A DNA stretch of 64,000 nucleotides. Origin: Candidatus Altimarinota bacterium. GTDB lineage: Bacteria; Patescibacteriota; Gracilibacteria; JAUYGZ01. A model generated the notes under the pieces. That model was not told the DNA's origin. It did no database searches and saw only the letters and a program-made list of their open reading frames with translations. Positions 27,014-33,739 of the stretch are shown piece after piece. Position numbers and translations under genes: made by a program. Every line of letters begins with the position of its first letter. The stretch's first letter is position 1. The stretch covers positions 681,096 to 745,095 of the forward strand of contig JARGOK010000001.1 of assembly GCA_029233985.1 (NCBI GenBank). The letters are read 5' to 3'.

Positions 27014-27475
27014 ATGTACAGTCTAAATAAAGTGCAGCTCATTGGAAACCTCACTCGTGACCCAGAAGTGAAACAAATCCCAAGTGGTCAAATGGTATGC
27101 ACACTTGGTATCGCGACAAACCGATCTTGGAAAGATCAGTCTGGAAACAAGCAAGATGCGACAGAATTTCACAATATTGTGTGCTGGGGAAAACTCGCAG
27201 AAATTGCAGGACAATATATCAAAAAAGGAACCAAAGTATATTTTGAAGGACGACTTCAAACACGAAGTTGGGATGACAAAGAAACAGGAAAAAAACAATA
27301 CAAAACAGAAATTGTTGCTGAAAATATGATCATCCTGACCCCAAAAGGAATGACTGAGAGTGGACAAAACTTTGGCGGAGGAATTCAAGAAAGCTCCCCT
27401 GCTCCCGCTGCAGAATCAAGCTTTACTCCAGCTCCAGCAGAAGACAAGATTTCAGTCGAAGATTTGCCATTTTAA
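27014..27475 (+). CDS. ssb: Single-stranded DNA-binding protein
   Basis: 153 residues. OB fold at 1-105 with the family start [40 protein letters not shown] and the [10 protein letters not shown] strand. A Gly/Pro/Ala-rich linker leads to the acidic tip EDLPF, the conserved partner-binding tail. Coats ssDNA in replication, repair and uptake. Single gene with promoter and a strong terminator. It borders the unusual TGTC/GACA-rich stretch. Confidence 0.97.
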
Positions 27476-28245: not shown

Positions 28246-28274
28246 TTTTCATTTTGGAAAGCAGTGTTTATACT
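28246..28274 (+). promoter_or_regulatory. Promoter of the HTH gene with adjacent TGTCGACA site
   Basis: TTTTCA (28246-28251), 17-base spacer, TATACT (28269-28274). A TGTCGACA palindrome at 28233-28240 abuts the -35, a position suited to an operator. Confidence 0.4.
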
Positions 28275-28296
28275 CGTGGTATCTTTTTTGAAAACT

Positions 28297-28962
28297 ATGG
28301 CAACTCAGAATGAACAATACGAAGTAGGGAGACAGTTTGCAGCCGAGATCCTCAATGTCTCTGTACGAACCCTCGACCGATATACAAAGAAAAAACAAAT
28401 CAGCTCTGTGAGAAGAGGACGTCAGCTATTTTTTAATGAAGAAGATCTCTTGAACTTCAAAGGACAGCTCATGGCGAAAGAAATGGGGAAGCAACGAGCC
28501 GCCGCAAAAAAGAAGACTCCACCAACAATGTCTTCATTCAAAGCAGCACGAAATGATGACTTTATCGAAGTACAAAGAGCACAGATCAAGGAGCAGGGCA
28601 ATGGTGAGACTCAAGAAACCGTTGTTGATGCAGCAGAACACCTTGAACAAAAACTATATAAAAAACTTTATGAAGAGTCTGAAGATGACAATCGAAACCT
28701 CCGAAAGCAAGTAGAAGGGGCAAACTACAGGCTCGGGCAATTAGAAACACAAGTAGCCAACATGATACCAATGATTGAGTACAAGAAACAAAAGGACGAG
28801 CTCCTGCTCTTAGCTGAAGAAAATCAGTTTAAACTGCAAGATATAAAAACCCTCGAGACGAGCCTGAAAATCGAACAGTTTGCCAAGAAAATCTATGCAG
28901 GACTCTTGTGGGGAATGCTGTGTTTGATTCCAATTTTATTGATATTGAGGATGTTGACGTAG
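28297..28962 (+). CDS. Tail-anchored MerR/excisionase-like HTH protein
   Basis: 221 residues from the ATG at 28297; an upstream ATG at 28264 overlaps the -10 region. Residues 8-60 form a helix-turn-helix of MerR/excisionase type (VGRQFAAEILNVSVRTLDRY, then RGRQLFFNEEDLLNFKGQL). A Lys-rich linker, a coiled coil (about 115-195) and a C-terminal transmembrane helix (IYAGLLWGMLCLIPILLILR) follow, leaving the HTH in the cytoplasm. A DNA-binding domain anchored by its tail to the membrane is unusual. It may regulate itself or the downstream ATP-grasp locus, and the TGTC/GACA-rich DNA upstream is a candidate target. These links are inference. A terminator hairpin separates it from the next gene. Confidence 0.75.
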   Translation: MATQNEQYEVGRQFAAEILNVSVRTLDRYTKKKQISSVRRGRQLFFNEEDLLNFKGQLMAKEMGKQRAAAKKKTPPTMSSFKAARNDDFIEVQRAQIKEQGNGETQETVVDAAEHLEQKLYKKLYEESEDDNRNLRKQVEGANYRLGQLETQVANMIPMIEYKKQKDELLLLAEENQFKLQDIKTLETSLKIEQFAKKIYAGLLWGMLCLIPILLILRMLT

Positions 28963-29251: not shown

Positions 29252-31624
29252 ATGCTCAAGTTTTGGGATCACCGGGGAGTGTTGGGGATCAATGCTCGAA
29301 ATTTACTTTATATCAAGCCTCTCAATAAAAAGGCTCAGATAAAGTTTGCCGATGACAAAATGAGGACAAAACAATACTTGTCTGCTCGTAGAATCAGCAC
29401 GGCGCGGTTGTTGGGTAAAATCACCTCTGAAACAGAGCTTTTAAATTTTCAATGGGACTCCCTTCCTCAAGATTTTGTTCTAAAACCGAACGCTGGATTC
29501 GGTGGAGAGGGGATTGTTGTTATCAAAAACCGTGAAGAAGGAGGATGGGTAACAGTAAAAGGAGAATTTTTTTCCCATGAAGACATGGTGGAGCATGTGA
29601 CTGATGTCCTAGATGGTCGTTATTCTATCACCAATAGTCCCGACACCGTGTTTTTTGAAGAACGGCTCATGTGTCATCATGATATGAGTGAATTGGGTAA
29701 ATTTGGACTCCCAGATATTCGGATCATTGTCTACAATCTCGTTCCAGTCATGGCAATGGTTCGAGTGCCGACAGAGGAGAGCAAAGGAAAAGCGAACGTC
29801 CATATGGGAGGCCTTGCACTAGGAATAGATCTCGCAAAAGGAGAAGTAACGCATATTTGCCATCATAATAAAATTATTAAATCCCACCCTGATTTTGGAA
29901 AATTACAGGGATTGAAGATTCCTTTTTGGGATGAAGTCCTCCTCTTGGCTACTCAAATCCAACAACTGATCACACTAGGATATTTAGCTGTAGATATTGT
30001 CATCGATGAAAACCTTGGGCCAGCTCTCTTGGAAATCAATGCTCGAGCAGGATTGAATGTGCAAATTGCCAATCTCGCACCTCTAAGAGACCGATTGGAC
30101 CGAGTGGCTGGAGTAAAGGTCCAAACTGCTGAAAAAGGTGTACGGCTAGCACAAGACCTTTTTGGGAATAAGATTGAGCGGAGTATTCAAGAAATTAGTG
30201 GAAAGAGTGTCATTGGAATGGAAGAAGAAATAATTTTGAATTTGAAAAATGGAACTCAGCCTGTTTTGGCAAAGATGAACCCGACGATGACAAAAAATTA
30301 TCTCGACAGCACTCTCTTTCAAAAAATAGTTGGACAAGGAAATGACGTTGAGAACCTGACATTGGGATATAGCCTGGCAGGAGAACGTGGTAAAACGATG
30401 TTTCACTCTCTTGAGATGAAGGAAGGAGGACATCAAGTTATTTTAGGGAAAAAAGCCCTCTCCAACTTCTTTTTGGATGTCACAAGAAGTAATGAAGAAA
30501 AGAAGATTCCGAGTATTGACCATGTGCCAGAAGAAAAACCTCAAAAAAAGATTGATTCTGTAATGGACAGGCTGATCAAGATCGATAATCAATTGGCTGA
30601 TTGGGATAGAGCACTTGGACTAGTCTCTTATCTGAGACCTGAGAACTTGGATGAGGAAAAAAAGCGATTCTTTTCATCACGCGAATACCAGCCACAATTT
30701 CGTTATAAAAGCCCAGATGATGGCCTGATTAATGTTCGCTCGAAACTTCAGAATCTAGCGATCCCTCAAAAAAGACCTATTGGTGTTCTTCTAGAACAAA
30801 AACGACAGGAGCTGATCAATAAATCCTCTCTTATCCAGGTGATCGGTGATGATGATCATTTCCCAAAACAGTCACGAATGGCCCTTGGATTTCCTCCTGA
30901 GGATGTGATTTCTGCAGCTCTAGAAGATTTAGCGAGAATACAAGAACCTCCTCAGCGAGAAAAAAATATTTCTTCGGAACAGCTGGCTGAGCGTATGCAA
31001 GCCTACTTGAAGAAAAAAGGCCTGTATAACTGGGAGGTGAAACTCAAGCAAGGGATCGTCTCTCGTTGTGTCTTGGGAAAGAACAACAGACTACTAGTAA
31101 AGTCTGGTGAAATGTTTTCGGATTATGATCTCCAAAAACTGATTGCTCATGAAATAGAGACTCACATTTACTGCACTGAGAATGGGAAACAACAACCGTT
31201 TCAAATTTTTCGAAGGGGGACTGCAGGGTATCTAAAAACACAGGAAGGACTGGCCGTGTATCACCAAAGTGAAGTGGTGGATGGTGGTGTACGAAATGCC
31301 GTTATCGGACTAAATGCAGTAGTATGGGCGCAAACGATGAGCTTTCGAGAAATCTATAACAAGGGGCTTGAGTACTTGGACCAGAATGATGCTTGGAAGC
31401 TAGCTGTGAAGGTCAAGCGAGGAATGAATGACACCAGTAAACCCGGAGGATTTACAAAGAATGCTTTGTATTATTGGGGCTACCGAGAAATCGCTCAGTA
31501 CTTGGAAAATGATGGAGAGTACCGAGACCTTTTCTTGGGAAAGTTTGAACTGTCTCAACTTGACCTGATTCGTCAAATGAAAGACCTGGTAAAACCTCAA
31601 ATACTTCCCGAGAAAATGTCTTAG
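29252..31624 (+). CDS. Three-domain fusion: ATP-grasp ligase, degenerate retropepsin-like, DUF1704 (QEGLA) metallopeptidase
   Basis: 790 residues. Residues 1-300 are an ATP-grasp domain of the sugar-transfer/alpha-L-glutamate ligase group: FVLKPNAGFGGEGIVVI is the ATP-binding loop and ALLEINARAGLN (258-269) the Mg-binding end. Residues 316-414 align with RimB-type retropepsin-like proteases (start VIGMEEEIIL; end VILGKKALSNFFLDVTRS), but the catalytic D-T-G is N-P-T (343-345), so that site should be dead. Residues 430-785 are DUF1704, with HEIETH (633-638) and TQEGLAVY (663-670), the HExxxH metal site and QEGLA motif of the MATCAP-type carboxypeptidases. No signal peptide or TM; cytoplasmic. 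One chain thus has ligase and peptidase active sites. RimK follows 67 bases downstream. Confidence 0.85.
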   Translation: MLKFWDHRGVLGINARNLLYIKPLNKKAQIKFADDKMRTKQYLSARRISTARLLGKITSETELLNFQWDSLPQDFVLKPNAGFGGEGIVVIKNREEGGWVTVKGEFFSHEDMVEHVTDVLDGRYSITNSPDTVFFEERLMCHHDMSELGKFGLPDIRIIVYNLVPVMAMVRVPTEESKGKANVHMGGLALGIDLAKGEVTHICHHNKIIKSHPDFGKLQGLKIPFWDEVLLLATQIQQLITLGYLAVDIVIDENLGPALLEINARAGLNVQIANLAPLRDRLDRVAGVKVQTAEKGVRLAQDLFGNKIERSIQEISGKSVIGMEEEIILNLKNGTQPVLAKMNPTMTKNYLDSTLFQKIVGQGNDVENLTLGYSLAGERGKTMFHSLEMKEGGHQVILGKKALSNFFLDVTRSNEEKKIPSIDHVPEEKPQKKIDSVMDRLIKIDNQLADWDRALGLVSYLRPENLDEEKKRFFSSREYQPQFRYKSPDDGLINVRSKLQNLAIPQKRPIGVLLEQKRQELINKSSLIQVIGDDDHFPKQSRMALGFPPEDVISAALEDLARIQEPPQREKNISSEQLAERMQAYLKKKGLYNWEVKLKQGIVSRCVLGKNNRLLVKSGEMFSDYDLQKLIAHEIETHIYCTENGKQQPFQIFRRGTAGYLKTQEGLAVYHQSEVVDGGVRNAVIGLNAVVWAQTMSFREIYNKGLEYLDQNDAWKLAVKVKRGMNDTSKPGGFTKNALYYWGYREIAQYLENDGEYRDLFLGKFELSQLDLIRQMKDLVKPQILPEKMS

Positions 31625-31691
31625 ATACTTGCATTCTTAGCCGTTCCAGCTACACTCAGCTGGCTAGTTTTGGTTTCTTATTCTTTCCTTT

Positions 31692-32618
31692 ATGAATATT
31701 GGGATTATTTCATTTCGCGCCCTAAATAAGCGGTTTTCTTACGAAGAAAAACGACTCAAAGAAGAGGCTATAAAAAAGGGGCATAAAGTCCACTTGATGA
31801 GATACCAACGATGTATGATGACCTTTGAAGGACATGGAACTTTGGGGATCCGGTACGGAAAGAGGCCCTTTCCAGAAGTTGACCTTATTATCCCCAGAGC
31901 ATCTGTATTGACGAATGCACCACTGAGAACTTCTGTAGTAGAACACCTCCAACTGATGGGATTACCCATGTTGAATGAATACAATGCGATCTTGAGAGCT
32001 AAAAACAAACTCCAAACCCTCCAAATCCTGAGCCATTATGAAGTTCCCGTGGTGAAAACTGCTGTGGTAAACAATAGTAAATACCTGAAGCAAGCGACGC
32101 GCTACATCGGAACCTTTCCTATTATCATGAAAACAACCTATGGATCGTATGGGAATGGAGTGGCTATAGTGGAGAGTCAGCGTTCAGTGAAGTCGACCTA
32201 TGGTATCTTGTCTGACAGTGTTGGAACAAAAAACATCATTCTTTTGCAAGAGTATATTGCTGAGTCTGAAGGAAAAGATATTCGGCTTTTTGTGGTAAAC
32301 GGTGAAGTCATCGCGACGATGCAACGATCTGCTGAAGATGGAGATTTCCGTTCAAACGTGGGTCAAGGTGGATCTGGCATGGGGTATACACCGACCGAAG
32401 AAGAGATTCATATGGCAGTAAAAGCAACGAAAGCCCTCGGATTAGAAGTTTCTGGAGTGGATATTATCCAAACGAAGAATGGCCCTGCCATCATGGAAGT
32501 GAATGCTAATCCTGGATTTAAAGAGTTAGAGGAGATTTCAGGTGTCAATGTTGCTGGCAAAATTATTGAATATTCCGAGAAATTTGCTCAAGAGTATGTA
32601 GCAGGGAGTATTGTGTAA
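31692..32618 (+). CDS. rimK: RimK-family ATP-grasp alpha-L-glutamate ligase
   Basis: 308 residues, the usual RimK length. N-terminal domain MNIGIISFRALNKRFSYEEK with VDLIIPRASV; central and C-terminal ATP-grasp with FPIIMKTTYGSYGNGVAIVE (ATP loop), LLQEYIAESEGKDIRLFVVN, the NVGQGGSG loop and the metal-binding end IMEVNANPGFKELE. RimK ligates glutamate to the C-terminus of ribosomal protein S6 in E. coli, and relatives make other amino-acid ligations. The actual substrate here is unknown. It follows the fusion gene on the same strand without an obvious promoter or terminator between, so the two probably form one transcript and one pathway. Confidence 0.9.
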   Translation: MNIGIISFRALNKRFSYEEKRLKEEAIKKGHKVHLMRYQRCMMTFEGHGTLGIRYGKRPFPEVDLIIPRASVLTNAPLRTSVVEHLQLMGLPMLNEYNAILRAKNKLQTLQILSHYEVPVVKTAVVNNSKYLKQATRYIGTFPIIMKTTYGSYGNGVAIVESQRSVKSTYGILSDSVGTKNIILLQEYIAESEGKDIRLFVVNGEVIATMQRSAEDGDFRSNVGQGGSGMGYTPTEEEIHMAVKATKALGLEVSGVDIIQTKNGPAIMEVNANPGFKELEEISGVNVAGKIIEYSEKFAQEYVAGSIV

Positions 32619-32782: not shown

Positions 32783-33739
32783 ATGAAAAAAATTGATAAA
32801 CAAATTGATAAACAAGGGGCTACAGAACATAATGAGGCTAAGCAGAATTTATCTCCGGACGAATTGAATGATCAGGAGCTCACAAATCTGAATTCTCAAA
32901 CTAAAATCTCTCTCCATCAACTTTTTTGCTCACAGCAATCTTTGGAAAGTGTTCATCGACGTATTTTTGAAAACGTTTCATCTCATGGTGTCATTATAAA
33001 CGGAGAGCGAGTTGCTGATATTTGCCCTGAAGAACCCAATCATCTACATCTCCTTAGAGAGGTATACCCTTTCATTGCCGCTGCTCTTCCTCAAGGCACC
33101 TCGTTTAGTTTCCTTGCAGATGGCGCAGACAGTGACGTCTTCATGGCCAATATGCCGGATGATGGTTACCAAGTTATTAAAATATATCATAATAGAAAAC
33201 TCAGTATTGAGCTCCTGCAGCAATATTTTCAATTTACAAACAAGGTAAAAGAAGAAATCTCAAAGTACCCTAACCAAACAATATCTCTGCCTTCTAGCTC
33301 AGATTTTGAAGGAGGAAAATACCATCTACGATTTGAAATAAGTACTGGAAGTGCCTCGTCAATTCATGGTCTTGAATCCGTAATAGACAAGATGGACTAC
33401 CCTGAAATACGCCTCACGGATCTGCGTAAAAAGAGTGACCTTCTCGTATCCATATCTCCATTTGTTGCCGGAGAAGCACTTGTAGAAACCACTCACAACC
33501 GAGAAGTTGTTGCATATGATATTCTTGAAGGAAAAGAATATCATGTGTTTCACGATGTTTCATTCTTTAGCAACGTCTTTTCGAAGATTACCGATTGGAT
33601 CAAGGAGAGATTTTCATGTGAAGGAGTCCAAATTGGTGATGTGAATGCCAAATTTGTTTTGAATTTGAAAAAAAAAGAACTCATTGTGGTTATTACAGAT
33701 CTTTGCCCAAGATTAGAACATTTTCGACTCCAGCCTTAA
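32783..33739 (+). CDS. Hypothetical protein, possibly a divergent protein-kinase-fold member
   Basis: 318 residues, no clear family. After a polar N-terminus (1-80), FLADGADSDVFMANMPD and GYQVIKIYHNRK resemble a glycine-loop plus VIK lysine pair of the protein-kinase/aminoglycoside-phosphotransferase fold. Near the C-terminus IGDVNAKFVLNLKKKELIVV followed by ITDLCP resembles a catalytic-loop and metal-binding segment (D-x4-N ... D-L) with changed spacing. If so it is a small atypical kinase or pseudokinase. The assignment rests on pattern only. It has its own promoter pair, 164 bases after rimK, and may or may not belong to that locus. Confidence 0.5.
   Translation: MKKIDKQIDKQGATEHNEAKQNLSPDELNDQELTNLNSQTKISLHQLFCSQQSLESVHRRIFENVSSHGVIINGERVADICPEEPNHLHLLREVYPFIAAALPQGTSFSFLADGADSDVFMANMPDDGYQVIKIYHNRKLSIELLQQYFQFTNKVKEEISKYPNQTISLPSSSDFEGGKYHLRFEISTGSASSIHGLESVIDKMDYPEIRLTDLRKKSDLLVSISPFVAGEALVETTHNREVVAYDILEGKEYHVFHDVSFFSNVFSKITDWIKERFSCEGVQIGDVNAKFVLNLKKKELIVVITDLCPRLEHFRLQP

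Follow-up and report, generated by a model that had tools for sequence, protein, structure and literature searches.

Enzymes of the TTL family are ATP-grasp ligases. In the tubulin code, such ligases (TTL/TTLL) are set against MATCAP/TMCP peptidases on glutamate-rich C-terminal tails, and the human TMCPs shorten poly-glutamate chains and require glutamate at the penultimate position (PMC10499314). In Pseudomonas, the ATP-grasp enzyme RimK puts C-terminal glutamates on ribosomal protein S6 and the opposing protease RimB removes them (PMC11957791). The Rlo system of Pseudomonas aeruginosa comprises the retropepsin RloA, the inactive-transglutaminase seven-transmembrane (7TM) protein RloB and the ATP-grasp protein RloC; bacteria that have lost the RloA retropepsins are rescued when RloB or RloC is lost as well, and the substrate of RloA is left open (PMC12239564). 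Here we present an analysis of a 64,000-nucleotide stretch of DNA (hereafter the window; contig JARGOK010000001.1, positions 681,096 to 745,095, forward strand) from a Candidatus Altimarinota bacterium of the class Gracilibacteria. It encodes a fusion of an ATP-grasp ligase, a degenerate RimB-like domain and a MATCAP (DUF1704) metallocarboxypeptidase, followed by a RimK-family gene. We propose that the fusion, together with a 7TM membrane protein encoded elsewhere in the genome, would form a Rlo-like tail-modification system of Candidate Phyla Radiation (CPR) bacteria, in which glutamate is added to and trimmed from the Glu-Glu (EE) tail of the 7TM protein, a reading that we hold to be about evenly balanced between right and wrong.

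Both open reading frames (ORFs) named in the initial annotation, the fusion and the RimK gene behind it, were recovered (Table 1), and its view that one protein unites a second ligase, a RimB-like pseudo-protease and a carboxypeptidase-type domain was borne out by profiles, motifs and alignment. The N-terminal part matches the Pfam family ATPgrasp_ST (PF14397) over residues 16-285 with 208 bits (cut-off 31). It scores 258 bits against TIGR02291 (alpha-L-glutamate ligase-like), short of the equivalog cut-off of 314, and we class it as a relative of TIGR02291, not as that equivalog. Five ligase residues, K78 to N263 (Table 1), occupy near-invariant positions among the relatives aligned and presumably serve in ATP and Mg binding. 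The C-terminal part matches MATCAP (PF08014) over residues 472-778 (141 bits, cut-off 27) and scores 148 bits against TIGR02421 (‘QEGLA’), below its equivalog cut-off of 339. H633, E634 and H638 of the HExxxH motif, as well as E665, are invariant in a 30-row alignment of the fusion, and HExxxH plus the third-ligand glutamate are intact in all 129 complete MATCAP ORFs aligned (6 further ORFs, cut by locus ends, stand outside this count). With its motifs intact, the domain is a predicted metallocarboxypeptidase. An AlphaFold2 model of the fusion built from the 30 rows had a mean pLDDT of 87, and a Foldseek search with it returned human MATCAP at the top (E = 1.8e-13) and RimK second (3.9e-10). 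The fusion is present in all 20 neighbourhoods picked across the class from genomes already having a MATCAP match, one of them (L034) cut by a contig end. One conserved chain joins a ligase of the writer type to a peptidase of the eraser type, both with their catalytic motifs kept.

Apparent stand-alone MATCAP genes of ~390 residues in TGA-reading lineages proved to be an artefact of counting TGA as a stop; reading TGA as glycine restores the fusion. Families f11, f15 and f22 of the class have many in-frame TGA codons and keep the whole fusion when these are read as glycine.

The stretch between the ligase and MATCAP domains gave no Pfam match in the profile scan. It aligns, with no direct profile match, to the PF05618 (RimB) domains of unfused relatives, which came from scanning a sample of the phylum together with named genomes and include Moranbacteria, Kerfeldbacteria, Woesebacteria and Kaiserbacteria. 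Their ligase gene mostly encodes 430-515 residues with RimB as the C-terminal domain and no MATCAP fusion; PF05618 scored above its cut-off in four of five such ligases scanned and slightly below it in one (26.8 of 27). Because the counterpart in unfused relatives is RimB and the catalytic DTG is replaced by N-P-T in the window's fusion, the name RimB-like pseudo-protease is apt. In a wider set of 220 distinct ligases (147 fused and 73 unfused, identical ligase stretches merged), D[TS]G, scored at its alignment column, is kept in 60 of the 62 aligned unfused ligases and survives in 5 of 146 fused proteins.

A protein of ~510 residues is encoded directly upstream of the fusion, on the same strand, in 13 of 21 loci. 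A PKD domain and a 7TM_transglut domain (PF14402) are present in each of the three partner proteins scanned, one of them from the window's genome; Foldseek with a model of the 7TM protein returned nothing but PKD domains at E <= 0.001. The window's contig also carries the 7TM gene of this genome, ~43 kb after the end of the window. MATCAP and 7TM matches occur together in 135 of 192 class genomes; 44 genomes have neither, 12 have MATCAP alone and one (G075, its ligase cut by a contig end) has 7TM alone. Gene content and order point to the 7TM_transglut membrane protein as the conserved partner of the fusion, a better one than RimK or S6. Its tail follows the last hydrophobic helix, behind a large extracytoplasmic domain, in a simple hydropathy scan that did not cleanly count the helices, and is probably cytoplasmic.

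In class genomes, this tail ends in EE in 123 of 136 cases and has E as its last residue in 129; among other ORFs of at least 200 residues in the same loci (L185-L190 left out), 22 of 734 end in EE. Conservation of the tail is highest at its two final positions; the residues preceding them vary, and EE is kept across ~100 genera. It is also found in 32 of 36 7TM copies with no fusion directly after them (39 minus G061, G120 and G146, which are actually adjacent with overlapping frames), and its commonest codon pair is GAA GAA; these two observations rule out that EE is a by-product of a ribosome-binding site for the next gene. Across the wider set, EE ends 128 of 143 partner tails of fused ligases and 3 of 71 partner tails of unfused ones (G075, G140 and L311). 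G140 (locus L173) and L311 are split forms, in which the ligase gene is followed directly by a separate MATCAP gene and the partner ends in EE; no intact RimB was found in either. A control sample around Pseudomonas and other relatives had EE in 1 of 29 7TM tails read, these coming from 30 fetched loci (L393 gave no tail; L365-L368 are included, and L367 and L368 entered outside the class search, by way of loci whose titles read Methanosarcinales archaeon and Bacterium isolate). L391 is the sole EE-ending PF14402 protein of the Pseudomonas-class sample, and the stretch fetched for it yielded no ligase.

In a tree of 36 chosen fused and 62 unfused rows (six non-CPR rows left out), the fused form makes one supported clade of 34 rows (SH-aLRT 99). 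G402 and G447 are placed among unfused rows, have DTS for DTG and have tails ending in QNE and TEE, respectively. They may represent a second fusion; a single origin of all fused rows, these two included, was not rejected (p-AU 0.198).

The locus resembles Rlo of P. aeruginosa in its 7TM family (PF14402), its related ATP-grasp ligase and its RimB-type domain; the same three Rlo-type genes are adjacent in Legionella adelaidensis. By contrast with Rlo, the ligase, the RimB remnant and MATCAP form one chain here, with a metallocarboxypeptidase and no retropepsin motif left, and the 7TM protein has a PKD domain and ends in EE. With 7TM_transglut and ATP-grasp components present and an active retropepsin motif absent, the sequences indicate a variant of Rlo that would work like it. 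The likeness to RimK-RimB of Pseudomonas is that of an ATP-grasp writer of C-terminal glutamates and an opposing protease; here, however, RimK is separate with local linkage only, RimB is degenerate and the S6 tails read do not end in EE. As in the tubulin code, an ATP-grasp ligase is set against MATCAP at a glutamate-rich C-terminal tail, and among solved structures human MATCAP is the one closest to the eraser, whereas the system here is bacterial, has writer and eraser fused and has a membrane protein as its putative target. On an Aminobacter plasmid, QEGLA (DUF1704) and N-formylglutamate amidohydrolase genes are found with a glutathione-synthetase-like ATP-grasp gene, so that DUF1704 again sits beside an ATP-grasp gene; there, the genes are separate, the ATP-grasp family is another one and no 7TM is annotated in the stretch. 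A second MATCAP-like gene (a 477-residue frame) at G007:C22:23354-25448 adjoins a RimK-like ATP-grasp gene, resembling the Aminobacter cluster, and frames of about this length that match MATCAP weakly are seen repeatedly elsewhere in the phylum. No paper naming both DUF1704 and ATP-grasp was found in the open-licence literature. The fusion itself may already have been recorded in a 2009 survey of amidoligases.

We propose the writing and erasing of glutamate on the EE tail because human MATCAP kin need a penultimate glutamate and because RimB removes glutamates added by RimK. The ATP-grasp domain would lengthen the C-terminal tail of the 7TM protein, on its cytoplasmic side, by at least one residue, most likely glutamate, and the MATCAP domain would trim the added residues back. 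The RimB-like domain, presumably once a retropepsin eraser, would now be a non-catalytic part; by analogy with RloA in P. aeruginosa, it was apparently RimB, as a retropepsin, that opposed the ligase in the ancestor. In such an eraser swap, the retropepsin would have decayed, MATCAP would have taken over and the partner tail would have become EE. Because the PKD domain of the partner lies outside the membrane, the marked tail would link a signal at the envelope with the cytoplasm. We infer the tail as substrate, glutamate as the added residue, the reversible cycle and the signal alike. In its boldest form, the system would amount to a prokaryotic version of the tubulin tail code within one polypeptide, with a writer and a MATCAP eraser cycling glutamate on a seven-helix receptor, having arisen by the retropepsin swap as the receptor tail adapted to its new eraser; this we offer tentatively, as possible rather than probable.

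Several observations weigh against the proposed glutamate cycle. Fifteen of 143 fused proteins have a partner without EE: a lysine-tail clade with intact MATCAP motifs (G123, G143, G150, G184 and G041), the short 7TM partners of G170 and L273, G008 (EEV), G402 (QNE), five QE tails and G033 (broken frame). Stand-alone MATCAP near an intact ligase-RimB (for example, in family f46) goes with non-EE tails. These exceptions oppose the simple rule that MATCAP demands EE. MATCAP also occurs in the 12 class genomes with no PF14402 match, and the RimB motif persists in the 5 fused proteins counted above. The correlation between fusion, RimB loss and EE rests on one or two events, and is strong in retention and weak in origins; a sign test of correlated evolution had 1-3 pairs and was uninformative (short ligase rows G010, G168, G395 and G482 dropped, G075 unlabelled, the G033 tail left out, and split forms G140 and L311 counted as fused). 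A charge swap in MATCAP was looked for in the lysine-tail clade and not found. The ligase of this one clade keeps the five ATP-grasp residues of Table 1 and differs at N274 in 5 of 5 members and at R281 in 4 of 5, both positions being otherwise well conserved. The partners at L142 (G170) and L273 are frames of 252 and 285 residues, lengths that cannot hold the usual extracytoplasmic part, and lie beside intact fusions.

Some of these points would also suit an EE tail unrelated to the enzymes, a clade-wide 7TM feature that might, for instance, protect from tail-specific proteases and that hitchhiked with the fusion in one ancestor: nearly all cases lie in one supported clade, and lysine tails occur beside intact MATCAP. 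However, EE has been held over those ~100 genera despite varying preceding residues, the split forms G140 and L311 and the possibly separate fusion G447 also have it, and copies with no fusion after them keep it, so that we regard this explanation as improbable. A higher standing, still on the unlikely side, goes to a free product: the ligase would make, and MATCAP degrade, free poly-glutamate or a small peptide, with the 7TM protein as its transporter or sensor and EE merely docking the enzyme or priming the chain. RimK is reported to synthesise poly-alpha-glutamate (PMC11957791), and free polyglutamate is left as a possibility in the Rlo paper (PMC12239564); yet two conserved C-terminal glutamates after variable residues are more easily explained as an enzyme substrate or a primer than as a general docking site.

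The initial annotation had read the locus as a conserved fusion-RimK pair, in which two ATP-grasp enzymes add tags and the DUF1704 peptidase removes them. The RimK gene is the sole PF08443 gene of its genome (170 bits) and scores 236 bits against TIGR00768, above the cut-off of 143, and 198 bits against the S6 ligase equivalog NF007764, below the cut-off of 331. A close homologue is present in 50 of 192 class genomes. It adjoins the fusion in just three genomes, G000, G005 and G028, which belong to the window's order, and is missing from that place in G018, of the same family, and in the other 17 neighbourhoods read. The two genes are therefore not a conserved pair, an outcome that the initial annotation had itself named as refuting its reading: the neighbourhoods rule out RimK as an obligatory partner, and it is a local neighbour or accessory of the window's order. 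What stands of the tag cycle is the ligase and the peptidase in one conserved chain; the pairing with RimK holds locally only. As first noted, the window has no rpsF, and the genome's single S6 gene, whose product ends in DADLGL, lies ~7 kb upstream of it. The acceptor tail of Escherichia coli S6 ends in EE; none of the 18 class S6 tails read does (18 of 22 loci, with G159, G021, G060 and G045 left out; G028 and G004 had no S6 match), which disfavours S6 as the acceptor. That the fusion and RimK tag S6 or another cytosolic protein, and that DUF1704 removes the tags, would agree with an intact RimK adjacent here and in two relatives of the order and with RimK structures as the nearest solved relatives. 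Against this, the two genes are not neighbours in G018 or outside the order, G001 and G003 have RimK with no MATCAP match, and the S6 tails speak as above; we consider it highly improbable.

Table 1 Features of the fusion and RimK genes, in window coordinates.
Feature	Position	Strand	Basis
790-residue fusion: ATP-grasp ligase, degenerate RimB-like domain, MATCAP/DUF1704 metallocarboxypeptidase (predicted)	29252..31624	+	Profile matches, Foldseek
ATP-grasp ligase domain, residues 1-306, ATPgrasp_ST / TIGR02291 kin	29252..30169	+	K78, E136, D248, E261, N263 kept
RimB-like domain, residues ~318-412, aspartyl-protease motif lost	30203..30487	+	Alignment to unfused relatives
N343-P344-T345 at the RimB D-T-G position	30278..30286	+	Sequence, alignment
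MATCAP metallocarboxypeptidase domain (predicted), residues 445-788	30584..31615	+	Profile matches, Foldseek
HExxxH metal/catalytic motif HEIETH, residues 633-638	31148..31165	+	Sequence, 30-row alignment
E665 of TQEGLA, candidate third metal ligand	31244..31246	+	Analogy with TMCP1 E316 (PMC10499314)
RimK-family ATP-grasp ligase, 308 residues	31692..32618	+	PF08443, TIGR00768

Other genes were noted around these features. A 232-residue protein with an HTH_17/excisionase-like domain (window 28264-28962) is encoded upstream of the fusion on the same strand in 3 of 3 family genomes. A 318-residue ORF 3' of RimK (window 32783-33739) matches no Pfam family above cut-off and has no relative in the 20 neighbourhoods. 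An SSB gene lies in the window at 27014-27475, and, additional to it, an SSB-like ORF (named by eye) lies just 3' of rpsF (L053, 2180-2695).

The substrate of the Rlo ligase and protease is open in print (PMC12239564), while here a candidate tail, with its two glutamates, is visible in the sequence. Because it is, the question can be put to a short peptide and one purified enzyme. The history of the fusion suggests that one eraser was replaced in nature by another whose fold is unrelated. MATCAP, known from tubulin, is found here in bacteria beside a ligase and a candidate target, which bears on the origin of eukaryotic tail editing.

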